Assembly (NCBI RefSeq): GCF_037076345.1
Contig: NZ_AP024702.1
Span: forward strand, 930,001 to 994,000
Reading direction: 5' to 3'
From: Haloferula helveola
Lineage (GTDB): Bacteria > Verrucomicrobiota > Verrucomicrobiia > Verrucomicrobiales > Akkermansiaceae
Length of the DNA: 64,000 bases
Shown one piece after another: positions 4,485 through 53,821 of this stretch (positions within the stretch are counted from its first letter, which is position 1; each line of letters begins with the position of its first letter). The notes under the pieces were generated by a model. It searched no databases, was not told the origin of the DNA, and saw nothing but the letters and a program-made list of their open reading frames with translations. The translations under genes and the position numbers were made by a program.

Positions 4485-7400
4485 TCAGGGCACTTCGTTA
4501 ATCTCCATTCGGGCGAATCTTGCCTTCTTTCCGTCGGGAAGAAGAGCAGGGTACGGAACACTCACGACTTCGTAGTCCGGATCGTCCGTCGAATCCGCCA
4601 CAAAGGTGGGTGTTGCCGTGCTGTTATACCATCCTCCCAGCTGACTGCTAAACTGAGGTGTATAACTCACACTTCCTGATGCTCCATAATCCTTACGGCG
4701 CACGAACATATAGTTGAAGGTGATTCCTCCACCGCCACCACTCGTCTGGATGATCGGCACGCCATTGACGGAGCCGTCGGCAACGAGGGTGCCGTTGTCA
4801 CTGGCGTTCGGATCCGTGCCGAATGCGAACTCCAGCAGGTTGACGAGACCGTCGGGTTCGACGTCGGCGGTTGTCAGTTCGTCGCCACCCGATAGGCCGT
4901 TGGCAATTACCCAGTCGCTGTAGGGACTGGCCGGGGCCCCGGCTCCCGGCACGACATCCGCGAGCGAGGTACCGATACGGATTTCGTCGTAGCTGGTGCT
5001 CACCTGCCGGGTGACATTCAGCGTGTCCAGAACGGTTTGGTCGACATCCACCTCGATCGGGCTGGCGATCTGGCTCAGCGCGCCCCCGGCGACCGTGTTG
5101 CTGCCGCTAAGCTGATACTCGAAGATGGTGAAAACATCCGCCCCTCCCGCGCCGGCATCGAACGAAATTCTCCCAACCAGCAAACGGACGTCATTGGCTC
5201 CGATCGACACGGGAAGCGCCGCATCTCCTGCGACTTGGGAAGAGCCGTCCCACGCATAGGCGGTCCAGTTGTTCCCCGATCCCGTAGGAGCGATGCCGAA
5301 TCCAACCAGTCCATCCCCTCCCGTATTCAGGACGATCTCCGAATTGGCTACGATCTGGTTGGTGATCGCAACGCCCCCTTCGGCAGCGCTGAAGCTGTTC
5401 AACACCTTGTCGGCAAGGAAGCTGAACCAGATCTCCGGGTTGCCGGAAATTCCGAGCTGGGCGGCAGGGGTCGGATCCCGGTGATAGATATCCCGGTCGG
5501 AATTGGTGTTGAAGCCGACATGATTCCCCAAGGTCACATGGTCGCCGTAGGCGAGGCTACCGGCGATGAGATACATCGTGTTCCCTGAGTTCCCGCCGCT
5601 CGCATCGTTCCAGGTGCCGGCCAATCCGGTGGCATCAACATCCGTCACCCCGGCATCGTCCGGTTGCCCTCCGAGGATGTCGTTGGTCGACGGATCCGCG
5701 TATTGGAAGCCCTCGTAAACGATCAGTCCGGTCGGGGGAGTTCCGGTCGTGAAGCTCCAGTCGGTATCATTCAGGATTCCGCCGAAAGCGTTCCCGGAAA
5801 CATCAGTGAGCACTCCGGCCGGAATCTGCACGGCATAGGATTTCCCGGGGGTCAGAAGGGCCGCAGGATTGATCGTCACGACGGTGCCGGCAATCGAGAC
5901 TTCCGAACCCGTAACGTCGACGTTCGTGGTCACGGCGTCGGTGAGATTTTTGACCTCGATGTTGCCACTTCCGGCAGCCATCGGCTCATCGAAGGTCACA
6001 ACAAGATTTGCCGCAGGATTCACATCCAACGAGTCATCGACCGGGTTCAGAGTCACCAGAGTAGGCGGGACGGCCTCAATCACGAAGTTCCACGTGGTTT
6101 GGTCAGGAATGCCAGCGAAAGGCAGCCCGGACGAGAAGCTCGTAACCACTCCGGCATCCATCTCGACCGCGTAGCTTTTGCCCGACTGGAGAGCCATCGT
6201 GGGGCTGATCGAAATCGACGCACCCGAAACCGTAACCTGGCTGCCATCGGTAACGGCGATCGTGGTCGTGATCGCGTCCGTGGTATTGACGATCCGGATA
6301 TCCCCTGTCCCCAGCACCACCGGCTCGTCGAATATCGCCTGCAGGAAGTTTCCGGCGGCGGACGGTTCCTCGTCCACAGGCGTGGTGGCGGCCAACACTG
6401 GGGCGGTCGTGTCCGGTGCAAGCACCACCGAGTCGGTGTAGAGATCATCGATCAGGTCCACAGGAAGAGCGACGTCCCACACCGCAACGTCGCTGATCAA
6501 TCCGGCCATGTCCTCGTCGAAGGAAGAACTGCCACCGATCTCCAGTGAGTCGTTCACCACTTCCGTATTGTTGAAGAGGCTCGAGTCCGAGCCAACAAAG
6601 GCACCGTCAACATATAGGCTCACCAGCGTGCCTGGAGATTTCGATCCGATCGCCAGCACATGGTGCCACTCACCATCGTCCAGATTGTATCCGCCGATAT
6701 CGACCCATCTCTGCCAAGCAGTGACCTGAAGCTTGTTCCAGACGCCGCTCCGGCTACCGAAGACCACATCGGCGCCAGCGTCCGCGTTCTGGTTGCCGTC
6801 CGTCTTCACCCATAGCGACCATGTGAACCCGTCGTCCATATTGATATCCTGCGTTCCGGCATCCAATCGGCTGTCTTCGGGAGTGGAATAGACCACTCCT
6901 CTGAACGGATCCGCCGCCCAAGCATGCCCGATCGAAGATCCGTCGGGGCTGGCATCGGTGGCGCCGTGCGATGGATCGTCGATCACATCGTCAGCCCCGC
7001 TGAAGGCGCTCCCCGGCAAACCGTCACGCATGGGCCAATAGGCTGCCGGTGTCGGAAAGGTTTCGGTGGTGAAACTCCATGTGGTCAGATCCGAAATACC
7101 CCCGAAGGAATTCGCCGAGCGGTCGGTCAAGGCCCCGGAATCGATCCTGACCGCATACTCCGTGCCCACATCCAGAACCGTCGCCACGTTGACGGTCACC
7201 ACCTCGTCGACGATCGAAACCGCCGCCGAGTCCGTGATGTCGACGGTAGCGATCACCGTGGAATCGCCTACCCTCACCAGTTCAATGTTGCCGGTGCCCG
7301 CCTCAACGATCTCGTCGAAGGTGATGACAAGAGAGGGATTGAAGATCGACACGGCGGTCGAGTCATCCGCCGGATTCAAGGTATCCACAACCGGATCCGC

Positions 7401-18836: not shown

Positions 18837-18960
18837 TGGGTAAATCGAAACGCCCGGACAGGTCGAAGACTATCGCCGTTGACTCGACACCGATTCGCGC
18901 CGGCGCCTGTCGGCGCCTTATTCCCAGTGCCTCACCTCGATCACGCTCTCCACTCTGGAA

Positions 18961-19230
18961 CCCCGAAGGGGTGCAGGCATTTAGCCCCGGGGTTCACCCC
19001 GGGGAAACGGTTGCCAGGCAAATCGAGCGCCAAAGGTGCGCAGGCGGAGCCTGATGATGAACCTCGTACCGCACACCCCGGACCACATCGCCTGCGCCCC
19101 TCCGGGGCTCGAATTTCTCCCCGACCCAAATCCCCGGGGTGAACCCCGGGGCTAACCGCCGACGCCCCTTCGGGGCTAAATGCCGATGCCACTTCGGGGC
19201 GAAATGCTAGTGCCACTTCGGGGCTTCGCA
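18961..19230. repeat. Cluster of REP-like GC-rich palindromes
   Basis: This gene-free stretch (18837-19318) holds short palindromes. CCCCGAAGGGG lies at 18961. AGCCCCGGGGTTCACCCCGG begins near 18983, and an inverted copy (CCGGGGTGAACCCCGGGGCT) ends near 19153. From 19164 a 24-base unit with the core GCCCCTTCGGGGC or GCCACTTCGGGGC recurs three times (starts 19164, 19188, 19212). Such palindromes are typical dispersed REP elements of PVC bacteria. They could act as transcription attenuators for the flanking sulfatase. Confidence 0.7.
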
Positions 19231-41593: not shown

Positions 41594-41644
41594 GCGGAGC
41601 CCACAGTCGGCTTCGAGCATCGGGGCCAGGGTCTAGGGGCCGGG

Positions 41645-41832
41645 AATGGAGCGCCGGTTATGAAACCGGCATCTTCCGTGAGGCCGAGCCGGTGATCAGT
41701 GGTCGGTGGCCAGTGGTCAGAAATGCAGCGCAGGACATGAAGCCGGCACCTTCCGTGAGGCCAAGCCGGTGATCAGAAGTTCGTGGCCGGTGGCCGGAAA
41801 AGGAGCGCCGGTTATGAAACCGGCATGTTCTG
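41645..41832. repeat. 77-bp tandem repeat, about 2.5 copies
   Basis: The GCGC of the motif GGAGCGCCGGTTATGAAACC lies at 41651, 41728 (degenerate: GCAGCGCAGGACATGAAGCC) and 41805, an exact 77-base period. Each unit continues with CCGGCA-CTTCCGTGAGGCC-AGCCGGTGATCAG. The ends of units 1 and 2 contain degenerate GACCACT-type heptamers (AGTGGTC). Unit 3 runs into the composite repeat at 41799. Confidence 0.8.
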
Positions 41833-42029: not shown

Positions 42030-43367
42030 TCAGATCAAGGCGCAGCCTTGATTCGATCCAGACTCTCCGCTCCCCGCTCCGCACTCTCCGCTCTCATCCA
42101 GCGGACTCGTCACGCCAAGACCGCTCACACCCACCGCCACGTGGAGGTAGATCTCCGTCGTCGTGATGTCTTCGTGCCCCAGCAGTTCCTGGATCCTCCG
42201 CAAGTCCGTCCCGCCCTCCAGCAGGTGCGTGGCAAACGAATGGCGCAGCGCATGGCTCGTCACCCCTTTCTCGATCCCGGCCGCCGCCGCCGCGCGCTTG
42301 ATCGCCCGGTTGTAAACGCTGTCGTGCAGGTGATGCCGGCGGATGATCCCCTCCGGCGCCCCTTCACTTCCAACCGTCGCCGGATCGACCGCCGTCTTCA
42401 TCGCCGGAAACAACCAGAACCACTCGAACCCCTCCGCCGCACGCCGGAGTTTCCGCGCCAGCGCGTTGGGCATCCACACCCCGGCCAATCCCGCCTCGCG
42501 GTCCTCCAGCCATACCGCCCGCGCCGCCTCGATCTGCCGTGCCACCGCCTCCCGCAGGCTCTTGGGCAGCACCGTCATCCGGTCCTTGTCTCCTTTCCCG
42601 GCACGCACCGTCAGCGTGCCGCGCTGCAGGTCCACGTCCTTGATCCGCAAGCGCACCAGTTCCATCAGCCGCAGCCCGGCCCCGTACTGCAGTCGCGCCG
42701 CAAGCGCGTAGCGGGCCTCCCTTGCCTCCATCTTCGCGAAAAGCCTCCGCGTCTCCTCCTTCGAGAGCACCACCGGGACCTTCGCCGCCGTCTTGCGCAG
42801 CTTCACTCCGAAGACCGGATCCTCCACTCCGCACACCTTCTTGAAGAAGAACGCCAACGCGTTGAGCGCCTGCTTCTGGGTCGAGTAGGCGCAGTCCTCG
42901 TCCTCCACCACCGAGGTCAGGAAACGCGTGGCCGTTTCCACTTCCATCGCCGCGCGTTGGTCGCCGGCGAACCTCGCATACCGCGCCGCCCAGCCGCTGT
43001 AGCAGAGCTTCGTGCGCCTCGCCAATCCCAGCCTCGATCCCGCGCTGCGGACCGCCGCCCGGACCCGCTCCGGCAGACTCCGATGGTCCGCACCGGCCTC
43101 CGCGCAGGCCGCCAGCCATTCCAGATACCATTGAAGGGCCGCTTCCCACTGTTCGAGCTGCCATTTCTCCCGATCCACGCCTTCACGCAGCACCTCCTCG
43201 CGCCAGAAGAGCCGGGCCGCGGCGCGTCCCGCGGGCATCTCGCGACGGAGGCGGAAATTCTCGAACCATTCGAGGGTCATGAGAAACCCCTCTCGGTCGC
43301 GTTGCGCGACGCCGCGACACTCCGAAAGGTCCTTGCGCCAGCACCAGCGGTTTTTGATCGCGGTCAT
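42030..43367 (-). CDS. intI: Integron integrase (tyrosine recombinase)
   Basis: A 445-residue integron integrase. The tyrosine recombinase core has Arg in QYGAGLRLMELVRLRIKDVD, H-x-x-R in SHALRHSFATHLLEGG, LLGHEDITTTEIYLH with the nucleophilic Tyr, and the end VSGLGVTSPLD. The IntI-specific insertion that separates it from XerC/D is present: WMPNALARKLRRAAEGFEWFWLFPA followed by IIRRHHLHDSVYNRAIKRA. The N-terminal extension of about 80 residues is usual in verrucomicrobial IntI. ATG 43367 is preceded by GAGG at five bases; ATGs at 43400 and 43439 are alternatives, the latter upstream of the LexA-type box. Read away from the cassette array, the classical integron geometry. Confidence 0.95.
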   Translation of the reverse strand: MTAIKNRWCWRKDLSECRGVAQRDREGFLMTLEWFENFRLRREMPAGRAAARLFWREEVLREGVDREKWQLEQWEAALQWYLEWLAACAEAGADHRSLPERVRAAVRSAGSRLGLARRTKLCYSGWAARYARFAGDQRAAMEVETATRFLTSVVEDEDCAYSTQKQALNALAFFFKKVCGVEDPVFGVKLRKTAAKVPVVLSKEETRRLFAKMEAREARYALAARLQYGAGLRLMELVRLRIKDVDLQRGTLTVRAGKGDKDRMTVLPKSLREAVARQIEAARAVWLEDREAGLAGVWMPNALARKLRRAAEGFEWFWLFPAMKTAVDPATVGSEGAPEGIIRRHHLHDSVYNRAIKRAAAAAGIEKGVTSHALRHSFATHLLEGGTDLRRIQELLGHEDITTTEIYLHVAVGVSGLGVTSPLDESGECGAGSGESGSNQGCALI

Positions 43368-43411
43368 GACAGCCTCGATAGCGGGTGGAGGGAAGCGCAT
43401 CAACCTTAAAA

Positions 43412-43425
43412 TGTTCAAAAGAACA
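43412..43425. promoter_or_regulatory. LexA-type operator upstream of intI
   Basis: TGTTCAAAAGAACA is a perfect TGTTC-N4-GAACA palindrome, 12 bases upstream of the ATG at 43400 and 45 bases upstream of the ATG at 43367. This form matches the LexA-binding motif reported for Verrucomicrobia, as I recall it. In other phyla intI is repressed by LexA and induced by the SOS response. The site argues that the integrase starts at 43400 or 43367, not 43439. Confidence 0.7.
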
Positions 43426-43559
43426 CCTATGGCGCGCATGACCCTTGCTTTGGCCCGGTCGATTGTAGTCGGTATATCAGATTTTCCTCCGCCGGACCGC
43501 AGCCGTCCTTTCCGCCCCCGGATATCACGCTCCCGATCTCGGTTTCCCCTTGTGAAACC

Positions 43560-43639
43560 GGGGATTCACCCGTCATCCTGCCACCCAACGGTTCCCTGGA
43601 TCTACGACCGGGAGCACCTACGAATAAATACTGTTCTGC
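43560..43639 (+). other. attI recombination site (junction with first cassette)
   Basis: The first cassette begins at the G^TT of GTTCTGC (43633-43639), complementary to the R'' box GCAGAAC of that cassette's own attC (44158). The sequence between the integrase and this point (43440-43632) has no gene and must contain attI and the cassette promoter. The left limit given is a guess. Confidence 0.6.
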
Positions 43640-43644
43640 TGAGA

Positions 43645-44256
43645 ATGAGACAAGCGCTCCTCATCATCGGTTGCTGCTGTAGCGTGTCGCTTGCCCCGTT
43701 CGTCGTTGCTGAGCTGGAGGGCGAGTATCCGCCCCAACCACTTTGTGTCTACACGCTGGCCGACGACGACTACATCCGGGCGGGAGCGCCGAGAATTCCA
43801 GTTGTCGTCACTGTCCTCAATGCCAACGGCAAGCCAATCGAAGGTGCCGCCGTCGCGCTGATGCGACTTGGCGAGGGCGGATTCACCGAGAGCGATGTTC
43901 AGGGACCGGCGAATCCACGAACTGATGGATCCGGAACAGCGGTGCTCCAGTATCCGGCAACCACGACGATGAACTACCTTCTTGATTTGCCTGAGGTCCA
44001 TCTCGATCTGATTGGCGCCATTACTGCCGTTCATCCGGATCTCGGGACGGCCAGTGTTGAACTCGGCGATCTCTACAAAGAGCCCTTGAAGCTATTTGAC
44101 ACCGCTATGACACCTTGGGTCACGGTCCGCTTCGGCCCAGAGCCCAAAACCAACAATGCAGAACAAGGCGGCGCTGGAGAACCCGCTACCCGCTCCGAGT
44201 CGGATTCGGAGGGTGGCCAGAAACCTCAACCAGAAGCGGAGGGGCGCTCCCGGTAG
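43645..44256 (+). CDS. Integron cassette 1: secreted hypothetical protein
   Basis: A 203-residue protein starting 11 bases after the cassette boundary. Signal peptide MRQALLIIGCCCSVSLAPFVVA. A region about residues 50-130 (VPVVVTVLNANGKPIEGAAVALMRLGEGGFTE) resembles a carboxypeptidase-regulatory/Ig-like beta-sandwich. The Ser/Glu/Gln-rich C-terminal tail is encoded by the attC site itself, and the stop codon lies inside attC, as is common for cassette genes. Not otherwise recognised. Expression is probably from a promoter in the attI region. Confidence 0.8.
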   Translation: MRQALLIIGCCCSVSLAPFVVAELEGEYPPQPLCVYTLADDDYIRAGAPRIPVVVTVLNANGKPIEGAAVALMRLGEGGFTESDVQGPANPRTDGSGTAVLQYPATTTMNYLLDLPEVHLDLIGAITAVHPDLGTASVELGDLYKEPLKLFDTAMTPWVTVRFGPEPKTNNAEQGGAGEPATRSESDSEGGQKPQPEAEGRSR

Positions 44257-44282
44257 CGGGTCCCAGGCCTTCAACGTTCGGC
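44158..44282 (+). other. attC site of cassette 1
   Basis: R'' GCAGAAC at 44158, R' GTTCGGC at 44276-44282. The arms pair: the left arm GCAGAACAAGGC...ACCCGCTACC matches the reverse complement of GGTAGCGGGTCCCAGG...GTTCGGC. Length 125 bases. Confidence 0.8.
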
Positions 44283-44288
44283 TGAAGA

Positions 44289-44678
44289 ATGAACCTTAGA
44301 GAGATCATCGAGGGTGAGGCGCCTCTGAGTGCGGACGAGATTGGAATGTATCTACCGTCAGAGCCTTACGGGAAGGTGCTGATCATTGCCGATGAATTGG
44401 AGGATGAGTCGCGAGAGCTCTTGGAGCAGCTCAGCACTCAGTGGGATTCCCTCTGGCCGAAGCTCCGATCGGAATTGGAGGAAGGGCTTGCAGACCATTC
44501 ACGCTCTGGCCAAAGGCTCGAGGAGGGAGCGTTTTCCGCAAGCATTCGGCCACTGTATGAGGAGGATACCGACTTCGGAGCCGATTGTGAGCTGGTGATC
44601 ACCTTCGACGTCGGCGGACCCCAGTGGGATTGCTCCCTGCGAGACGGAACGATTGTCCATTTCCAACCCGTTTTTTAG
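44289..44678 (+). CDS. Integron cassette 2: hypothetical protein
   Basis: A 129-residue acidic cytoplasmic protein whose ATG is 12 bases after the cassette boundary (G^TT at 44276). Contains LSADEIGMYLPSEPYGKVLIIADELEDESRELLEQL and the strand-rich end ADCELVITFDVGGPQWDCSL. No known motif. Composition is less GC-rich than the flanking chromosome, as expected for a mobile cassette. Confidence 0.75.
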   Translation: MNLREIIEGEAPLSADEIGMYLPSEPYGKVLIIADELEDESRELLEQLSTQWDSLWPKLRSELEEGLADHSRSGQRLEEGAFSASIRPLYEEDTDFGADCELVITFDVGGPQWDCSLRDGTIVHFQPVF

Positions 44679-44707
44679 TGACCGGATAGGCCGTCCGGAA
44701 CCAAACC

Positions 44708-44834
44708 GCCGAACAAGCCATGGAAGATCGACGCTCAACCGCCGTCTTGTTGAACGCCCCACCGGCGCCGAGCACCGTTCCCATTTCCTCGACGTGCGGC
44801 CTTGTGCTCGCGCGTCTTCACTGAGACGTTGTGC
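44708..44834 (+). other. attC site of cassette 2
   Basis: R'' GCCGAAC at 44708-44714 is complementary to the start of cassette 2 (GTTCGGC at 44276). R' is GTTGTGC at 44828-44834. Arms GAAGATCGACGCTC and GCTCGCGCGTCTTC can pair. Confidence 0.8.
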
Positions 44835-44840
44835 CAGAAA

Positions 44841-45236
44841 ATGAACAAGGACGAGTATCTCGAGAAGTTCGTGTTCAATGGCCTTACCAATCTAAACCAT
44901 GGGTTTGACGCAGAGGGCACCAAGTATTTCTCGGGATCGGAGTTTAGGTCGGTTCTTTGCCGAGTGGAGAAGCTAGGTATCGGCATTTATGGAATCGAAC
45001 CATGGAAGAACGGGGATCTTTACGACGTCAGGGTGTGCGAGGATTACGAGCTTAATCCTTCAAACCCTCAATGGTATTGGAAGGCGTTCGAAGCCTTCAC
45101 TAAGGAAGACCGAGGATTACTCTACGCTGCAACTTTTCACGTTCCCGAGCGCCTGCTAAATGAACAAGCACAACAAGCCGGCGATGGCGACGCCTACCAG
45201 CGGCCTTCCATGAGAAGGCAGTCAACTGGGAATTGA
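44841..45236 (+). CDS. Integron cassette 3: hypothetical protein, 3' end altered by IS insertion
   Basis: A 131-residue soluble protein from ATG 44841, 12 bases after the cassette boundary. Contains NGLTNLNHGFDAEGTKYFSGSEF and GIEPWKNGDLYDVRVCEDYELNPSN; not recognised. The IS insertion in the following attC replaces the natural end: without it the frame would close after Q-R-P-C, with it the last ten residues (SMRRQSTGN) come from the IS. Probably still functional, because the change affects only the tail. Confidence 0.72.
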   Translation: MNKDEYLEKFVFNGLTNLNHGFDAEGTKYFSGSEFRSVLCRVEKLGIGIYGIEPWKNGDLYDVRVCEDYELNPSNPQWYWKAFEAFTKEDRGLLYAATFHVPERLLNEQAQQAGDGDAYQRPSMRRQSTGN

Positions 45237-45661
45237 GGTTTGCCTCAACATTCGTTCTGGAGTGTTAGGATTGGAAGATGTCCCCCCGCTCCCCGGGGGG
45301 ACGGGAGGGGCGAAGCCCCCGGATGGGGGTTTGGGGGGGAACCGAGTGTGGTCGAGCTGACCCCAGCTCGGCGGGGTGCGGGGCGGCAGCCCCGTGTCGT
45401 TACCGAGCGAGTGCTGCTGCGGCGGTCACGGAATGAAACAAGGCTCCGGGCTTCCATTCGCATTTGTCCGGCCCGCTTCCGTTTGGGGCCGGGTGCATGA
45501 TTCGATCCTTGCTTCGTTGTTCTCATGGAGAGGGGTGGGACGCTGCCATCTTGTTAGCGCACTCGGGGCCTCTCGGCCTGGTGCTGCCGCGGTGCCGCAG
45601 TCGTCCCGAATCTGTTGGGAAGTCGTTTCATCGTGGGAAAAGGGTCGCCGTGCGCGGCGGG
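45222..45661 (-). ncRNA. Candidate bridge/seek RNA region of IS copy 1
   Basis: The non-coding 440 bases lie downstream of the transposase stop, where IS1111-type elements encode their targeting RNA. It contains G-rich palindromes near 45283-45340 (CTCCCCGGGGGG and GGCGAAGCCCCC). Exact RNA ends cannot be set by eye. Confidence 0.4.
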
Positions 45662-46729
45662 TCAGGCCGCTTCGGCGGGTTGTCCGGAATGGTGGAAGGG
45701 ATCGTAGTCGAGTTCTCCGCGCCAGAGGGTGAGCATCAGGACCGCCAGCTTGCGGGCGACAGCGACGACGGCTTTCTTCTTCGCCCTGGGGCCACCCATG
45801 GCGGCAAGTTTCTCCCCGTGGCGTCTGAGCTCGCAGTCGATGCCGAAGTGACCGAGCAAGTATTGTGCGCAACCGATGAGCAGGCGTCTGAGGTAGGCGT
45901 TGCCGGCTTTGGAGATGCGCAGTTGCTTGTCGATGTCTCCGGACTGCTCGCGCCGCGGCACAAGTCCGAGGTAGGCGGCGACGTTGCGGTTGGAGGTGAA
46001 GCGTTCCGGATCACCGACGACGAGGACGAAGGTCAGGGCGGTGATGGGGCCGACTCCACGAATCTTCATGAGCCGGGCCGTGGCGGGATAGCGTGCGCAG
46101 GTCTCCTCGATGGACTTGTCGAGGCGATTGATGCCGGCGTTTAGCGAATCAAGGACCTCCAGTGAGGGTTCGATCATGGCGAGGATCTCCGCGTGTTCTC
46201 CGGCCAGGAACTCGCGGCAGCGTCTCGCCACGGCGGGTGTGCTGGATTTCGGAACGCGGATGCCGAGACTCTTGAGGGTCATGCGCACCGAGTTGAGGAT
46301 GTCGACTCGGCGGGCAACGAGATTGTCACGCAACTTGACCTGAAGGAGGTCGCGCTGCGCCTGCTCGCTACCATGCTCGATGGGGTGGAGCAGCTCGCGG
46401 TCGGCGCGTGCGAGGCGGGCGAGCATGCGGGCGTCGTGGCGGTCGGACTTGCGGGTGTTGGCGTAGATGGCGCGAAGCTTGCGCGGGTTGGCGACGATGA
46501 CCTCGTGACCACGCGAGGCGAGGAAGCGGCTCGTCCACGGACTGTGGGTTCCGACCTCCATGGCGATGGTGGCACCGGGGTGTTTTTCGGAGAGCCTGCG
46601 CAGTGACTCGCGATGGTTGGTGATCGTGCGCTCGTCGAGGATCGTGGCTGAGGCGTCGAGCGCGCAGATCGAGTGCTTCCGGTCTCCGAGGTCGATTCCG
46701 ATGATGGTGGTCGATGATGTGGTATTCAT
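45662..46729 (-). CDS. IS110-family DEDD transposase, copy 1
   Basis: A 355-residue transposase. The RuvC-like N-terminal domain has D13 (GIDLGD), E58 (AMEVG) and D96/D99 in RKSDRHDARMLA, the DEDD set. The C-terminal Transposase_20 domain has IRGVGPITALTFVLVVGDPERFTS and RISKAGNAYLRRLLI with the serine used by this family. Identical in sequence to the copy at 48903-49970, which points to recent transposition. Confidence 0.95.
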   Translation of the reverse strand: MNTTSSTTIIGIDLGDRKHSICALDASATILDERTITNHRESLRRLSEKHPGATIAMEVGTHSPWTSRFLASRGHEVIVANPRKLRAIYANTRKSDRHDARMLARLARADRELLHPIEHGSEQAQRDLLQVKLRDNLVARRVDILNSVRMTLKSLGIRVPKSSTPAVARRCREFLAGEHAEILAMIEPSLEVLDSLNAGINRLDKSIEETCARYPATARLMKIRGVGPITALTFVLVVGDPERFTSNRNVAAYLGLVPRREQSGDIDKQLRISKAGNAYLRRLLIGCAQYLLGHFGIDCELRRHGEKLAAMGGPRAKKKAVVAVARKLAVLMLTLWRGELDYDPFHHSGQPAEAA

Positions 46730-46873
46730 GGCAGCAAGAGCTTACCCTTCTGGCGCTTCCGCGCCCTGCTGCCTTCTCATCTAATCTTGTTGAATTTCGT
46801 TCTAGGTGATTCAATCCCTTCAATCTGGCACGGAGCGCCGCCTTTGTTCGGGCGTCGCGCCATGCCTCAGACG

Positions 46874-47310
46874 TTGTGCAGCATATCGGAGCTCCGTGTT
46901 CCGGGGTTGATGATCCTGCTGGCGGATGGATCGAGGTTCATCGGAAGCGGTATCGAGCTCGGGCACTTGACCGACGCAGGTCGAGATCGTTCGGAGCATC
47001 ACCGGCACACCGCTGACCAAGCTGCTTCGTGGGTCAGCCCTTTGGTCTTGCGGCGGACTGACTTCATGACTCGGCAGTGCAGCCCGGGGCGTCACATCGG
47101 CTTCGGGCGACTCTTCCCGGGTAGGCATCGACGACGCGGCGTGGCGGCTTCGGGAGCGGTGCGGAGCGATCCGGCAAGGCACCAAACCGTCCAAGCACAA
47201 CAAGCCGTGGGTGGCGACGCCTCGCAGCGTCCGAGCCGGCTTCCATCCGCCACACGAGAGCGGACCGGGGCTGGGATTCCAGCTTGTAGGGGCGCGTCAC
47301 CACTTTATCG
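46874..47310 (+). other. Integron cassette 4: no convincing gene
   Basis: 437 bases between the attC of cassette 3 and the attC end of cassette 4. The cassette start (TTGTGCAGCATATC) is not followed by an ATG as in the other cassettes. Open frames exist on both strands, but their Arg/Pro/Ser-rich translations look like chance reading of GC-rich DNA. It may be a non-coding or decayed cassette, or carry an RNA or promoter. Confidence 0.55.
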
Positions 47311-47316
47311 TTCGCT
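47195..47316 (+). other. attC site of cassette 4
   Basis: R'' GCACAAC at 47195-47201 is complementary to the cassette 4 start (GTTGTGC at 46873). R' GTTCGCT is at 47310-47316. The left arm is GTGGCGACGCC, the right arm GGCGCGTCACCAC. Confidence 0.75.
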
Positions 47317-47322
47317 ATCAAA

Positions 47323-47802
47323 ATGAGCCGACCACTTCGGGCAGCGATTCTGGTATGTAGCGTCTTGGGTTTGGTCGCGGCAGTGATCTTCGGGCTGATC
47401 CTCCCGAATCGCCCGCTGGACGAGGTCGCAGGTCTTTCGGAATCGACCTTCGATGATGCCGCCCGTGGGGGTTTGCCGCATTCAGCCACAAGGATCATGC
47501 GATACACCACCGGGTTCACGGATTCCGCCACATGGACCGCTTACACAGCAGATCGAGCGACGATCGAGAGAGCCAGTGAGGCTCTCACCCGAACGAGAAT
47601 GGAGGATTGGGCACCGTGGGACCCTCAGCGGGCTCACAGCCTCAACCGACCCGCCCGCGCAGAACGCTTGAACCGTGGTTACTGGGATGTCGACGCCGTA
47701 GCCAAGGGCCGCTTTTATTCGTCATTCGACGGCTCGAACGGAGTGCAGGTTCTGATCGACACCGCACGGTGGAGAATCTTTATCCATCAGTTCAGCACCT
47801 AA
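47323..47802 (+). CDS. Integron cassette 5: membrane-anchored hypothetical protein
   Basis: A 159-residue protein from ATG 47323, 12 bases after the cassette boundary. One N-terminal hydrophobic segment (AAILVCSVLGLVAAVIFGLIL) is a signal anchor, so the rest is probably outside the cytoplasm. The remainder (TDSATWTAYTADRATIERASEAL, YSSFDGSNGVQVLIDTARWRIFIH) is unrecognised. A single-pass anchor of this kind is also seen in cassette 9. Confidence 0.75.
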   Translation: MSRPLRAAILVCSVLGLVAAVIFGLILPNRPLDEVAGLSESTFDDAARGGLPHSATRIMRYTTGFTDSATWTAYTADRATIERASEALTRTRMEDWAPWDPQRAHSLNRPARAERLNRGYWDVDAVAKGRFYSSFDGSNGVQVLIDTARWRIFIHQFST

Positions 47803-47811
47803 CAAAAACAA

Positions 47812-47940
47812 AGCGAACAAGCCGAAGATGGCGACCCCTCACAGCGGCCTTGTTACGTTTCCGTTCTGGTGGTTACCTACCCCATCGAGAATCGGAGCCC
47901 CGCCATGAGGGTCGGGATCGCCATTTCTCTGACGTTCGGC
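47812..47940 (+). other. attC site of cassette 5 (uninterrupted example)
   Basis: R'' AGCGAAC at 47812-47818 is complementary to the cassette 5 start (GTTCGCT). R' GTTCGGC is at 47934-47940. Arms GAAGATGGCGACCCCTCA and TGAGGGTCGGGATCGCCAT pair. The segment CAGCGGCCTTGTTACG shows the intact site used by the IS elsewhere. Confidence 0.83.
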
Positions 47941-47949
47941 AGAAAATCG

Positions 47950-48477
47950 ATGCACATTGCCGATCTCCTCGACGACGATCATTTCACGCAGTTCGAGGAG
48001 CGATTGTCGGAGCAATTTGGCCTCGAACGCTTCGTCGGTGACTCGATAGTCCGCGATCTGCTGCAGAAGGAGATCGAGGACTCCCGCTTTAACCTGGAGC
48101 AGTTGGCGATTTACTTTGCGAGGCGGACCGAGCACTTCGACCGATTTGCACGAGAGTGGTATCGTGACGCAAGCGGAACCGACTACGGAGAGGAGTTTGA
48201 TCCCGTTGAGGGAGATCAGCAAGATCGACGAACCGGGCGGGAGGTGATTGGGATCAGCGAAGGCTTTACGATCTCCTACCTCCTACTTTTTTTATACGGC
48301 ACGGAGTACCCCCGCGAACTCGAAGGGTGGATTCGCACGCGTCGGATTCCCGCAGCAAGCCATGTGGCCCGTGATGTACGTCGAGTGATCCGGGAGACAG
48401 CCAAAATTGCCGAACAAGGCGGAGATTGCGACGCTCCACCGCGGTCTTCCATGAGAAGGCAGTCAACTGGGAATTGA
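47950..48477 (+). CDS. Integron cassette 6: hypothetical protein, 3' end altered by IS insertion
   Basis: A 175-residue protein from ATG 47950 (MHIADLLDDDHFTQFEERL), 15 bases after the cassette boundary. Acidic, helix-rich, no signal peptide; contains FARRTEHFDRFAREWYRDASGTDYG. Not recognised. The last residues (SMRRQSTGN) come from the IS inserted in the following attC, exactly as in cassette 3. Confidence 0.72.
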   Translation: MHIADLLDDDHFTQFEERLSEQFGLERFVGDSIVRDLLQKEIEDSRFNLEQLAIYFARRTEHFDRFAREWYRDASGTDYGEEFDPVEGDQQDRRTGREVIGISEGFTISYLLLFLYGTEYPRELEGWIRTRRIPAASHVARDVRRVIRETAKIAEQGGDCDAPPRSSMRRQSTGN

Positions 48478-48902
48478 GGTTTGCCTCAACATTCGTTCTG
48501 GAGTGTTAGGATTGGAAGATGTCCCCCCGCTCCCCGGGGGGACGGGAGGGGCGAAGCCCCCGGATGGGGGTTTGGGGGGGAACCGAGTGTGGTCGAGCTG
48601 ACCCCAGCTCGGCGGGGTGCGGGGCGGCAGCCCCGTGTCGTTACCGAGCGAGTGCTGCTGCGGCGGTCACGGAATGAAACAAGGCTCCGGGCTTCCATTC
48701 GCATTTGTCCGGCCCGCTTCCGTTTGGGGCCGGGTGCATGATTCGATCCTTGCTTCGTTGTTCTCATGGAGAGGGGTGGGACGCTGCCATCTTGTTAGCG
48801 CACTCGGGGCCTCTCGGCCTGGTGCTGCCGCGGTGCCGCAGTCGTCCCGAATCTGTTGGGAAGTCGTTTCATCGTGGGAAAAGGGTCGCCGTGCGCGGCG
48901 GG
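48463..48902 (-). ncRNA. Candidate bridge/seek RNA region of IS copy 2
   Basis: Non-coding segment downstream of the transposase gene, same sequence as in copy 1 as far as can be read. RNA ends not defined. Confidence 0.4.
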
Positions 48903-49970
48903 TCAGGCCGCTTCGGCGGGTTGTCCGGAATGGTGGAAGGGATCGTAGTCGAGTTCTCCGCGCCAGAGGGTGAGCATCAGGACCGCCAGCTTGCGGGCGA
49001 CAGCGACGACGGCTTTCTTCTTCGCCCTGGGGCCACCCATGGCGGCAAGTTTCTCCCCGTGGCGTCTGAGCTCGCAGTCGATGCCGAAGTGACCGAGCAA
49101 GTATTGTGCGCAACCGATGAGCAGGCGTCTGAGGTAGGCGTTGCCGGCTTTGGAGATGCGCAGTTGCTTGTCGATGTCTCCGGACTGCTCGCGCCGCGGC
49201 ACAAGTCCGAGGTAGGCGGCGACGTTGCGGTTGGAGGTGAAGCGTTCCGGATCACCGACGACGAGGACGAAGGTCAGGGCGGTGATGGGGCCGACTCCAC
49301 GAATCTTCATGAGCCGGGCCGTGGCGGGATAGCGTGCGCAGGTCTCCTCGATGGACTTGTCGAGGCGATTGATGCCGGCGTTTAGCGAATCAAGGACCTC
49401 CAGTGAGGGTTCGATCATGGCGAGGATCTCCGCGTGTTCTCCGGCCAGGAACTCGCGGCAGCGTCTCGCCACGGCGGGTGTGCTGGATTTCGGAACGCGG
49501 ATGCCGAGACTCTTGAGGGTCATGCGCACCGAGTTGAGGATGTCGACTCGGCGGGCAACGAGATTGTCACGCAACTTGACCTGAAGGAGGTCGCGCTGCG
49601 CCTGCTCGCTACCATGCTCGATGGGGTGGAGCAGCTCGCGGTCGGCGCGTGCGAGGCGGGCGAGCATGCGGGCGTCGTGGCGGTCGGACTTGCGGGTGTT
49701 GGCGTAGATGGCGCGAAGCTTGCGCGGGTTGGCGACGATGACCTCGTGACCACGCGAGGCGAGGAAGCGGCTCGTCCACGGACTGTGGGTTCCGACCTCC
49801 ATGGCGATGGTGGCACCGGGGTGTTTTTCGGAGAGCCTGCGCAGTGACTCGCGATGGTTGGTGATCGTGCGCTCGTCGAGGATCGTGGCTGAGGCGTCGA
49901 GCGCGCAGATCGAGTGCTTCCGGTCTCCGAGGTCGATTCCGATGATGGTGGTCGATGATGTGGTATTCAT
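48903..49970 (-). CDS. IS110-family DEDD transposase, copy 2
   Basis: 355 residues, the same protein as the transposase at 45662-46729 (DEDD residues D13, E58, D96/D99; Transposase_20 domain with the RISKAGN serine). Intact, so at least one of the two copies could be active. Confidence 0.95.
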   Translation of the reverse strand: MNTTSSTTIIGIDLGDRKHSICALDASATILDERTITNHRESLRRLSEKHPGATIAMEVGTHSPWTSRFLASRGHEVIVANPRKLRAIYANTRKSDRHDARMLARLARADRELLHPIEHGSEQAQRDLLQVKLRDNLVARRVDILNSVRMTLKSLGIRVPKSSTPAVARRCREFLAGEHAEILAMIEPSLEVLDSLNAGINRLDKSIEETCARYPATARLMKIRGVGPITALTFVLVVGDPERFTSNRNVAAYLGLVPRREQSGDIDKQLRISKAGNAYLRRLLIGCAQYLLGHFGIDCELRRHGEKLAAMGGPRAKKKAVVAVARKLAVLMLTLWRGELDYDPFHHSGQPAEAA

Positions 49971-50124
49971 GGCAGCAAGAGCTTACCCTTCTGGCGCTTC
50001 CGCGCCCTGCTGCCTTCTCATCTAATCTTGTTGAAGAGCCTGGTTGGTGGTTTGCTGCTCCCAACGGAATCGGCGCCGCCGCCATGAGGATCGCGTCGCC
50101 ATTCCTTCAACGTTCTGTCTCGAA

Positions 50125-50610
50125 ATGGTCCGCAATGGATTTGCAACGTTAGCTCTTGCATTCGGTGCGCAGCAGGTCGCGTGGACTCTCCTAGACTACG
50201 AGGGCCTGCAGAACTCTGATTATCCGCGTGACGCCTGGCCTTACGAAGTGAACCCTCTGTTCGGGGGCGTGATTGCTCTGATTGCAATCGTCGTGGCTCT
50301 AGCGTTCTACGAGAAGCGATGGTCGATTTCCAGAGCAGTTGGGTCCATCCTGGCGGTCGCAGCGGGCATCCACTTTTGGGTTTTGCGACACCCTGCTGAA
50401 CCGTACAAAGATTATGGTGAGGACAATGTGGTAAGAATGATCGTCAATGAATTCTGGGTGGGCGTGATCATGCTTGTGGTATGTGGCATCGACTACGTGG
50501 TGCGGAGTGGGCAACGACAACCGACAATGACAGAACAAGTCGGTGGAGGATCGACGCCGATCAGCGGCCGTGTTGGATCGGACTCGTCAGACGCGGGCGG
50601 CCGTGATTGA
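50125..50610 (+). CDS. Integron cassette 7: integral membrane protein
   Basis: A 161-residue protein from ATG 50125, 12 bases after the cassette boundary. Four hydrophobic stretches (GFATLALAFGAQQVAW; LFGGVIALIAIVVALAF; AVGSILAVAAGIHFWVL; FWVGVIMLVVCGIDYVV) indicate a small multi-pass membrane protein. The hydrophilic Gly/Ser-rich tail is encoded by attC. Not recognised. Confidence 0.75.
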   Translation: MVRNGFATLALAFGAQQVAWTLLDYEGLQNSDYPRDAWPYEVNPLFGGVIALIAIVVALAFYEKRWSISRAVGSILAVAAGIHFWVLRHPAEPYKDYGEDNVVRMIVNEFWVGVIMLVVCGIDYVVRSGQRQPTMTEQVGGGSTPISGRVGSDSSDAGGRD

Positions 50611-50654
50611 GTTCTAGGAGGCGCGGCTAGCGCGTCTCACCTTCAACGTTCGAC
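50530..50654 (+). other. attC site of cassette 7
   Basis: R'' ACAGAAC at 50530-50536 is complementary to the cassette 7 start (GTTCTGT). R' GTTCGAC is at 50648-50654. The hairpin arms include GTCGGTGGAGGATCG. Confidence 0.78.
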
Positions 50655-50671
50655 AGAGAACTCCGATACCA

Positions 50672-51037
50672 ATGAGACTCACACTTGGAGGACGGTTGAC
50701 GATGGCCGCAGCCGTGCTGTGGGCTCTCTCAATCTGCGGACAGCTTGTCGGTTCGGACGTTTTTGTTGGGGTGAGTTGGTGCGTGATGATCGCTCTGTCA
50801 TTCCCGCTAGCGATTCTGAGTGGAGCAGTTTCCACCATGGGACCCGCACCGATTAGCAGTTGGATCTTGTATCTTGCACTCATGATCCCAAATTGCTTCG
50901 TTTGGGGATACGGATTGGCCGGACTTCTCCGCATCGCTCAGATCGCCATTCGGCCGTCTTCTGTCGACTGCTCAGTTCCTGATTACCCGACCGCAACGAC
51001 CGAAAACCAAATTGTCGAATCGGGTCCCGGGGAGTAG
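50672..51037 (+). CDS. Integron cassette 8: small membrane protein, 3' end altered by intron insertion
   Basis: A 121-residue protein from ATG 50672 with three hydrophobic stretches (TMAAAVLWALSICGQLVG; FVGVSWCVMIALSFPLAILSG; WILYLALMIPNCFVWGYGLAGLL). The natural frame would end in attC (I-V-E-Q-D-A-D-G-D-P-L, then TAA near 53090). The group II intron at 51019 replaces this end with S-G-P-G-E and a stop at 51035. Not recognised. Confidence 0.7.
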   Translation: MRLTLGGRLTMAAAVLWALSICGQLVGSDVFVGVSWCVMIALSFPLAILSGAVSTMGPAPISSWILYLALMIPNCFVWGYGLAGLLRIAQIAIRPSSVDCSVPDYPTATTENQIVESGPGE

Positions 51038-53063
51038 TTAGCTCCCCGGTCCCACACCACCCTGCGTACGGCTCCGTACAGGGCGGTTCCGATCAGACCC
51101 GGGCTGACGGCCCGTAGTGAAGCTTGATCCATGTCGCCCTCATGTCGGGCACCCCTTGTTCCTCAAGCCAACGGTTGTGGAGTGCGTGTCGCACCAGTGA
51201 CATCTGGCTCATCCGCCAGTAGCCTTTGCGGCTCCGCGACGCCTTATGCACTTCGTCCGGGGCGATGCCCAGCGCGAGGAGTTCGCGGCGCCGCGTGCGC
51301 GGTTGCTTCCATTGCTTCCAGTAATACAACCTCACCCTTCGCCTGACCCATTCCGCAAGCCGTTCGATCACCGTGTAGGTGCAACTGAGCTTGTAGTAGT
51401 TGAGCCAGCCAAGGACATACCGGCGCAGTTCGCCGATGACGTCCCGCACGGCGTGGCCCCGGTTGCGTCGGGTGATCCCGCGCACGCGCTCCTTGAAGCG
51501 GTGCAGCGCCTTGTCCGTCCACACCAGCCGGCCCTTGCGGTCCATGGCATAGCCGAGGAATTCGCAGAAGCCCAGCCGGGTGCAGCGGCTCTTGGCGCGG
51601 TTGACCACCAGTTTGAGCCGTCCTTCGCAGAAGCGGGCCAGGCTTGCCATCACCCGGCTCGCCGCCCTCGCGCTCCTGACCATGACGAGGAAGTCGTCGG
51701 CATATCTCGCGAACTTGTGTCCGCGTGCCTCCAGTTCCTTGTCGAGCGGGTCGAGCACGATGTTGGCGAGCAAAGGCGACAGCGGTCCGCCCTGCGGCAC
51801 CCCGAGGGGCGTGGCCTCCCGCGTGCCGTCCGGCAGCACCACCCCGGCGGTCAGGTAGCGACGGATCAGCCCGAGCGTCACGCGACACCCGACCTTCTCC
51901 CGCAGCGCTTCCATCAACCGGTCGTGGTTGACCGTGTCGAAGAACGATTTCAGGTCGCAGTCCACGACGTGGCGGCGGCCTTCCGTCCAGCCGGACTCCA
52001 TCTCGGCCACCGCGTCGTGCGCGGAATGGCCGGGCCGGTAGCCGTGGCAAAAGCGCCGAAGGCCTGTAGGCGCTTTGGACGGAGCGAAGCGCAGCCCCGA
52101 AGGGGTGAGGGGGCGGGCGGAGCCCCCGAATCAATGTTCGCTGAAGTCCGCTTCAAAGCGCGGACCCAGCACTTGCGCGACGGCCTGCTGGATCACCCGA
52201 TCCAGCACCGTCGGAATCCCGAGGGGACGCCTTGTCCCGTCGGGCTTGGGAATCCACACCCGTCGAACGGGTGCGGGATGGTAGGTGCCATCCCTGATGG
52301 CTTCGGCGATCCTCGGCCACTCCGCCCGCGCGAACGCGGAATGCGGCGGTCGGCTTGCCGACCTTTTCCCTCGCTGGTTTCCGGAGGAGGAAACCACTGA
52401 CCGGCATGGCGTGAGTGGAACGAGGGCAAAAGTCGTCGGCGGTCATGCCGTCGATGCCCGGAGCGCCCTTGTTGGCCTTCACGCGTTTCCACGCTGCGGC
52501 CAGGTTCTCCGGGTCGAGGATCTCCTCGATCATGGTTCTTGCTTGGGGGTCTCCATGCTTCCCGCCGCAGCGGCTCTCGTCCATGCCTCGCCTTCCGGCG
52601 TCGTCGGCTGGGGCGTCCGCCACGGGGTCGAAACCCTCCTCATCGGTTCGGTCCTTCATCGGCTGAGACCTCCGGCAGCTTTGCTGCGCTTCATCACGCT
52701 CCGGCTCGTTCTCCGACTACTACGACCTCCCTCCTTCGCCAAGGCTACGGCGGACAGGCTGCTGACTTCTCACTGTCCTGCGACGGTGAGATCTCCCCAG
52801 GTAATGGCACGTTGCTCTGCTGCACTGCCGCCGCATTTACCTCCACGGGCATACCAGACGCCTTCGGTGTGTTGTGCCACCTCGACGCGCCGTGTCGGCC
52901 TTCTATGCGGTTCTTGTCCATCGACTCACAGCTTTCCCATAGCCTTCCTTCATGCGTCCGGTCGCCCTCGCGCACTTGGCCTCTGGTAGTAGTTTCGTTT
53001 CATGTTCTGGTATTCCTACAGGGGACTTGAACCCCATTTACAACGTGCCCATGCTGGGCACAC
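51019..53063 (-). mobile_element. Group IIC-attC intron
   Basis: A 2045-base intron on the minus strand, opposite to the cassette genes, as usual for attC-targeting class C introns. On the minus strand the 5' exon ends CATCTTGT and the intron begins GTGTGCCCAGCATGGGCACG. It ends with domain V/VI sequence (CTGTACGGAGCCGTACGCAG, then a GGGGAGCTAACTACTCCCC stem) and CCCGAT. Joining the exons gives TTGTTCGAC, an intact R'' region. The encoded reverse transcriptase/maturase is disrupted. Confidence 0.85.
51093..52659 (-). pseudogene. Group II intron reverse transcriptase/maturase, disrupted
   Basis: Three pieces of one class C intron protein. The N-terminus starts at 52659 (MKDRTDEEGFDP...[13 protein letters not shown]). 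A middle piece follows ([10 protein letters not shown]...[24 protein letters not shown]). The last piece (GYRPGHSAHDAV, FFDTVNHDRLM, GVPQGGPLSPLLANI, ARYADDFLVMV with the YADD site, and the maturase part to 51093) is complete. An insertion of about 77 bases near 52355-52430 shifts the frame. A second of about 80 bases near 52045-52135 adds an in-frame TGA at 52131-52133. Both inserts are rich in palindromes. The protein is probably not made in full, so the intron would be immobile unless helped in trans. Confidence 0.83.
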
Positions 53064-53196
53064 ACAAGATGCTGATGGCGACCCCTTATAAGCGGCTTTG
53101 TTACGATCTTGCCGCCAGCGTCGGGGGCTGCTTGAGTGCTTGGGGCCGTCCCGGTCCGGTTCCGGGATCGCCATAGCGTTGACGTTCGCCACAGTA

Positions 53197-53682
53197 ATGA
53201 AGAGCTGGGTCCGGATTGTCGGCGTGCTGGCGCTGCTTCTGGCCGTTGGAGGTCCAGTCGTCTGGGTTGTGACCCGACCGGACGAGTATCACACACCCGA
53301 ACGTCGGGCTGCCAAGCGGCAGATGATCCAAGACATTGGCGAGCAGGTCGTCGACCTCGATCCTGAGAACCAGCTCAAGCGTTACGAATGGTGGGATGAT
53401 GAGTTCATCCAGTTCTATGACGGATCGTGGATTGCCTACCGAGCCCAATGCCACAAGGTCGATCCGAAGGTTTACGACCTCTTTATCGGCCGCGCATCTG
53501 ATGGGAATTGGTACTACTCGACCTACCACTTCTGCGTCGGGATGCTCGCGCTTCAGGGGCACGACCAGATGGACACCCTCGAGGACTTTATCTCTGAGTA
53601 TGCCCTCGAGACCTTCGATGGCGCATCGGATCAAGCCCTACTTCCAACTTGGCCGGAACGAGCTTGGACCCAGCAGAACTAG
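53197..53682 (+). CDS. Integron cassette 9: membrane-anchored hypothetical protein
   Basis: A 161-residue protein from ATG 53197, 12 bases after the cassette boundary. A signal anchor (IVGVLALLLAVGGPVVWVV) is followed by a soluble region (PDEYHTPERRAAKRQMIQDI; RYEWWDDEFIQFYDGSWIAYRAQC; FIGRASDGNWYYSTYHFCVGMLAL). Two cysteines, in YRAQCHK and YHFCVGM, might form a disulfide outside the membrane. No family recognised. Confidence 0.75.
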   Translation: MKSWVRIVGVLALLLAVGGPVVWVVTRPDEYHTPERRAAKRQMIQDIGEQVVDLDPENQLKRYEWWDDEFIQFYDGSWIAYRAQCHKVDPKVYDLFIGRASDGNWYYSTYHFCVGMLALQGHDQMDTLEDFISEYALETFDGASDQALLPTWPERAWTQQN

Positions 53683-53689
53683 ATTCAAC

Positions 53690-53821
53690 GGCGAACAAGG
53701 CACGGCTGCCGGCCACAATCAGCGGTCTTGTCGCAGACCGTTTTGGCAGCTAGACACCCGCTAATGAATCGCACCATCGATGCCCCGAGGGCTTACATTA
53801 CCCGGACGTGCAGCGTTCCGT
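53690..53821 (+). other. attC site of cassette 9 (end of array)
   Basis: R'' GGCGAAC at 53690-53696 is complementary to the cassette 9 start (GTTCGCC). The likely R' is GTTCCGT at 53815-53821. Arm pairing is weaker than in the other sites. No further attC was found to the right. Confidence 0.62.

Follow-up and report, generated by a model that had tools for sequence, protein, structure and literature searches.

The chromosome of Haloferula helveola (5.68 Mb in one contig) appears to carry a recently active integron system laid out over five platforms, among which the integrase copies cassettes; we put the probability of this reading at roughly 0.8. Three integrases exceed the cut-off of the integron-integrase model TIGR02249, and each heads an array: array A, with nine cassettes, lies in the window, the whole stretch of 64,000 nucleotides that was analysed, while array B at 3.26 Mb holds 36 cassettes and array C at 3.46 Mb holds 16. 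Two further platforms consist of an attI and cassettes with no integrase nearby, namely D (1281170-1287721, at 1.28 Mb), which carries a group IIC-attC intron, and F (1949096-1951991, at 1.95 Mb), which has an insertion sequence (IS) in its first attC. Sites of the attC type also form cluster E (2238444-2239822, at 2.24 Mb) and the single-site cluster G (5397169-5397300, at 5.40 Mb), in neither of which an attI was detected. As anatomy the integron is certain. An integrase separable from XerC/D, attC sites that match their own cassettes and a putative attI at the first cassette together place it among the integrons, as judged from the DNA sequence.

The integrase gene of platform A, intI (42030..43439, minus strand), has a start within the frame that yields 445 residues, the version held in the database, and its product matches TIGR02249 with 323.7 bits (cut-off 265). 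Models of Xer recombinases all stay below their cut-offs on this protein (XerC 134 against 335.15, XerD 144.9 against 329.6, archaeal XerA 166.7 against 220), and a Xer identity is thereby ruled out; in the control genomes TIGR02249 found a match in 14 of 14 and exceeded its cut-off in none. Among solved structures, Vibrio IntI4 is nearest in sequence (2a3v, E 4.3e-79, profile positions 111-419). The original prediction had called this protein an IntI on account of an IntI-specific insertion and had proposed that an IntI model be used to separate it from XerC/D; the separation holds, and the alignment with 2a3v runs through the patch that had been named. The IntI of this group bears an N-terminal extension of about 110 residues, which lies outside the match to 2a3v, is conserved in 30 sequences picked among the 120 IntI matches listed, and is helical in a low-confidence model. 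Repeated GCCGGTTATGAAACCGGC-like units stand behind intI (window 41640-41830) and recur between intI and attI of platform C.

Divergently from intI, nine cassettes follow one another on the plus strand from the attI end at G^TT 43633 to 53815-53821, with G^TT boundaries at 43633, 44276, 44828, 46873, 47310, 47934, 50112, 50648, 53184 and 53815 and attC sites 122-134 nt long. Since a cassette was once circular, its R'' box is expected to be complementary to its own 5' end. This is what is found: the R'' box is the exact reverse complement of the first 7 bases of its own cassette in nine of nine cases in the window (36 of 36 variable bases), a result reached in none of 200000 permutations, and the start of the next cassette is also matched in only one of nine. 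The own-box match thus demonstrates, at the level of sequence, that the cassettes descend from circles. It bears out the earlier description of nine plus-strand units that run from G^TT to an attC-like site, and it excludes a shorter site, a hairpin ending at the inner CTTGTT motif, because R'' pairs with the downstream G^TT.

Eight of the nine window cassettes have a gene whose ATG lies 12-24 bases into the cassette, in agreement with the early ATG claimed before. Cassette A1 (43633..44275) has a gene that reaches into its attC site (gene 43645-44256; attC1 44158..44282), and exact copies of it, B4 and B18, stand in array B. It is followed by A2 (44276..44827; gene 44289-44678; attC2 44708..44834) and A3 (44828..46872), in which the frame that begins at 44841 now enters an IS that splits attC3 (45168..46879). 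Cassette A4 (46873..47309; attC4 47195..47316) has no convincing gene: its only long ATG frame begins at base 37, is open to the cassette end and was not counted as a gene, and a relative on platform D is 88 percent identical over 437 nt. Next come A5 (47310..47933; gene 47323-47802; attC5 47812..47940), with the exact copy C5 in array C, and A6 (47934..50111), whose frame from 47950 likewise enters an IS, here splitting attC6 (48409..50118). The row ends with A7 (50112..50647; gene 50125-50610; attC7 50530..50654), A8 (50648..53183), whose gene (50672-51037) has a frame ending within a group II intron that splits attC8 (51012..53190; R'' box from 51014), and A9 (53184..53814; gene 53197-53682), the site of which (attC9, 53690..53821) is the last of the array. 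The cassettes and their attC sites are all on the plus strand. Cassettes 3, 6 and 8 are long because of the insertions in their sites, an IS in attC3 and attC6 and the intron in attC8. The count of nine cassettes given by the original prediction stands, with nine own-matching units; what it missed is that these three sites are occupied by homing elements. The own-box match holds across all three insertions, which supports the joins across them and rules out a misreading of the array through the repeated IS.

The same signature extends to the other platforms. Over arrays A, B and C and platforms D and F, 66 of 70 cassettes match their own box (A 9 of 9, B 33 of 36, C 15 of 16, D 8 of 8, F 1 of 1), the four misses being the last cassettes of B and C (B34, B35, B36 and C16); the start of the next cassette is matched in 9 of 68 cases, and 100000 shuffles reached at most 20 of 70. 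This count leaves aside clusters E and G, a weak site beyond B36 and the second site of F; since the latter does not own-match, F rests on one cassette. A covariance model built from the nine window attC sites, for which the window matches hold by construction and the independent result lies in the other arrays and clusters, gave at least 61 matches at E 0.01 across the genome (150 of 3320 candidates scored). In 16 background stretches of 10 kb over the chromosome, no match reached E 0.01 and a single one was seen, at E 0.048. The interpretation as a chromosomal integron is supported: the two outcomes that had been named as speaking against it, an IntI model that fails to separate the recombinase from XerC/D and fewer than three attC sites by covariance model, both fail to occur, with many further sites in the two other integrase-headed arrays.

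The platforms are also linked by their attI. The putative attI of platform A (43590..43639, plus strand, outer limit approximate) contains GAATAAATACTGTT at 43622-43635, a 14-mer that A, C, D and F have in common at the boundary of the first cassette and that occurs four times in the genome; a search with one mismatch allowed returned the same number of occurrences, all exact, and the backwards control none. The attI core of B differs from the other four (TAATAACACTGTT). The sequence before the attI of D aligns with the intI-attI interval of C over 684 columns at 76 percent identity, and one D cassette matches B2 with a single mismatch in 661. A tblastn search with the three IntI found no integrase at D and F in 20 kb around each (about 6 and about 8 kb upstream of attI), none of the open frames listed there is integrase-like by eye, and around D, E, F and G there was no integrase match in 17-20 kb about each.

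The evidence for cassette traffic is the presence of exact copies. Exact copies bounded at G^TT account for 27 of the 60 cassettes of A, B and C that are bounded on both sides; they form 11 sets, and the order of cassettes differs between arrays. Seven sets extend across two arrays (A1 = B4 = B18; A5 = C5; B3 = B14 = C3; B7 = B23 = C4; B8 = B10 = B21 = C14; B11 = C15; B13 = C2) and four lie within one; A1 and A5 are the only window cassettes with exact copies (2 of 9). These sets give 22 duplicate pairs, 12 of them between arrays. Copies lie nearer attI, with 12 of the 15 cassettes at positions 1-5 against 15 of the 45 others (Fisher p 0.0024, the cut at 5 having been chosen afterwards), and only 2 of 20000 within-array permutations gave a mean position as low. 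Together these observations strongly support recent cassette copying, apparently both within and between arrays. Counted against the reading of integrase-driven copying are that no set occurs in all three arrays, that 4 of the 11 are confined to one array and that the genome is a single assembly, as well as that repeated capture from outside or, in part, homologous recombination could also give identical cassettes.

In the first of these alternatives, each array would have taken up these cassettes on its own from an external pool (phage, plasmid or neighbouring cells), with no traffic between platforms. Their attC sites are similar and would plausibly accept the same circles; however, 27 of 60 cassettes are present two to four times as exact copies, in part inside a single array, which would require many coincident captures; copying in the cell is simpler, and we consider independent capture unlikely. 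Homologous recombination or gene conversion could instead have spread the copies, and would fit two features of the arrays, namely that identical IS copies occur in several of them and that four of the 22 pairs come from two shared blocks, each of two adjacent cassettes (B13-B14 / C2-C3 and B10-B11 / C14-C15). The other 18 pairs share a single cassette, with identity lost at either end no more than 9 nt from G^TT, which makes recombination of this kind highly improbable as the agent. The preferred reading, copying by the integrase, has a precedent in a mobile integron, for which the available text of PMC8024014 reports copy-and-paste outcomes of excision. Copying within the cell would here be readable from the sequence of a natural case, in exact copies with clean ends on platforms with and without integrase.

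The attC sites themselves are demonstrably occupied by two kinds of element that, by their sequence features, home to them. The first is an IS1111-like IS of the IS110 family, present in the window in two minus-strand copies (45205..46794, with transposase 45662-46729 and outermost bases ambiguous with the target, and 48446..50035, with transposase 48903-49970). The chromosome has five copies, identical over the 1590 bp in common (a few ambiguous target bases included), and all five lie in attC, each flanked on one side by TTCAACAAG and on the other by the opposite arm of an attC-like site. Its transposase scores 239.3 bits against NF033542 (cut-off 140), its ends have the subterminal inverted repeats GAGAAGGCAG / CTGCCTTCTC, and 457 nt of non-coding sequence follow the transposase stop. 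An IS110-group transposase, inverted repeats of this kind and a non-coding region downstream of the transposase, the last a published feature of the IS1111 family (PMC11187229, as far as the accessible text goes), would assign the element to that family. According to the same partial source, it resembles the attC-targeting members ISKpn4 and ISPst6 in the IS110-family transposase, the long downstream non-coding region, the subterminal inverted repeats and the location in attC, whereas those two are said to target one attC end and the window IS sits at an inner motif, 37 bases into attC (A3, A6). IS1111 members are described there as seekRNA-guided, whereas the guide of the window IS is predicted only. 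The candidate, a seekRNA-like target-guide RNA (45537..45607, minus strand; second copy 48778-48848), is a predicted 71-nt hairpin in the non-coding region with an internal loop ACCGC / AACAA. The loop is set in ACCGCGG, the complement of the target's right half, and AACAAGA, identical to its left half, an order of halves as reported for IS1111 guides (PMC11187229, in the portion available). The match is partial: AACAAG fits five of the five targets and ACCGCGG three of five, and other stretches of the region match too, e.g., GCCTTGTT. It is proposed that the IS finds attC through a guide RNA of its own.

The second element is a group IIC-attC intron in attC8 (51019..53063, minus strand, 2045 bp), which matches RF02001 with 99.5 bits, runs against the cassette direction and is the only Rfam match within the array; elsewhere in the window, two Acido-Lenti-1 RNA matches lie on opposite strands (18959-19004 and 19132-19177), and no tRNA gene was found in the 64 kb. 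In the two nearly full copies of the intron the 5' exon ends in CTTGT and the 3' exon starts with T. The published insertion site of group IIC-attC introns is TTGT/T of the attC bottom strand (PMC7923331, from the part consulted), and a group II ribozyme at that position places the element in this class. Unlike the introns in that part of the source, this one has a broken reverse-transcriptase match: TIGR04416 aligns in two pieces, 51093-52010 and 52131-52397, with 218.7 and 83.1 bits (cut-off 300). Platform D has a further copy, of 2015 nt, inside one of its attC sites, and a 3' fragment lies at 5.10 Mb. For the intron of PMC7923331 the top database match came from a Verrucomicrobia bacterium, by the text accessible, so that the host group of IIC-attC introns is not new. 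Because two unrelated homing elements use the same attC sites, such arrays would be suited to studying how guides follow their targets.

Such insertions might also be taken as marks of a fossil array, with an inactive integrase and decaying attC sites in which IS and intron merely accumulate. Insertions occupy three of the nine window attC sites, the reverse transcriptase of the intron is broken, and the R'' boxes of the last cassettes of B and C are altered. The IntI frames of A, B and C, however, are open and alike in the catalytic region, and mismatch-free copies over 500-699 bp point to recent activity, which makes decay a very unlikely account of the system.

In the proposed model of an active system, IntI would act on the folded bottom strand of attC and free cassettes as circles, which would be inserted at attI. 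The platforms with an integrase (A, B and C) and those with attI only (D and F) use the same kind of attC. Copying would have been the work of IntI, by excision that keeps the parent array followed by insertion, and on D and F the enzyme would work in trans. A broader form of this model, to which we give even odds, is a distributed integron, in which several attI platforms, some without integrase, form one cassette economy and the IntI of any platform copies into all. If this is true, some of the clusters filed as CALINs would be satellite platforms still open to loading.

The cargo of the arrays is only partly recognisable. None of the eight window cassette proteins passed a Pfam or NCBIfam cut-off, and the earlier statement that all cassette proteins are unrecognised is accurate for the window with respect to Pfam; beyond it, the other arrays contain families with Pfam names. 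When 40 cassette proteins from arrays A, B and C are taken together, 11 Pfam families are recognised at E 0.001, with one or two members each, among them SUKH, signal peptidase S26, DMP19, Imm21, DUF6714 and ParE- and YoeB-like toxins, and PADLOC finds three families (best E 1.9e-8, 3.8e-7 and 0.002). The ParE-like and YoeB-like toxin genes lie in late cassettes of B (5461-5772 and 6204-6470 of locus L018). A scripted count finds an ATG frame of at least 75 residues, starting in the first 75 bases, in 43 of 44 distinct cassettes (the open frame of A4 included). Of these 43 frames, 17 reach attC, including those of A3, A6 and A8, which run into the insertion, and four that extend 0-5 bases into the site. 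Where the frame continues into attC (A1 at 44158-44256, A7, B6, B15 and B28), the encoded proteins have similar C-terminal tails, and the attC-encoded end of A1 (from residue 172) is found again at the C-terminal end of 29 database proteins that otherwise differ.

Integrons in Verrucomicrobiota are established, the phylum being on a published list of integron-bearing phyla (PMC8618304, in the part seen); cassette sharing and integrase-less attI platforms are newer. In the host family, 40 of 97 genomes (this one included) match IntI at E 1e-60, 39 of them over the cut-off and several with two or three. A database search with IntI gave 6084 matches at E 1e-40 among 7998 scored proteins. Many of the 120 matches listed are named integron integrase, and among those listed the nearest named relatives belong to Akkermansiaceae, Verrucomicrobiales and Haloferula, in accord with the earlier description of the genome as verrucomicrobial. 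The stretches fetched from four relatives that have several integrases, partly on short contigs, showed no exact cassette sharing, and the open PMC literature, as far as accessible and with subscription journals and preprints outside it, yielded no report of cassette sharing among the platforms of one verrucomicrobial chromosome. Like sedentary chromosomal integrons of the Vibrio cholerae superintegron type, the system has intI divergent from attI, long attC sites, mostly unknown cassettes and toxin genes of the ParE-like and YoeB-like kinds. It differs from that type in having three complete and two integrase-less platforms on one chromosome, exact cassettes in more than one array and an IntI with the N-terminal extension. 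Clusters D, E, F and G resemble CALINs in that their attC sites lack an integrase match within the distances searched, but D and F keep an attI and could receive cassettes if IntI were supplied in trans. Shewanella genomes may also have more than one integrase gene (20 of 158; PMC9229058), although exact cassettes common to platforms of one chromosome are not described in the available portion of that source.

The orientation of the arrays provides a further point of comparison. According to a published idea, orientation with respect to replication controls array stability (PMC11023631, from the accessible text), and this could be examined within one genome such as the present one; three arrays prove nothing. 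In 22 of 24 sampled stretches the GC skew agrees with replication starting near 2.4 Mb and terminating near 5.25 Mb, and dnaA (5470738-5472087) lies far from the origin placed in this way. Judged by this skew and by how the two 16S genes are oriented, B is co-directional with the replication fork; A and C point against it.
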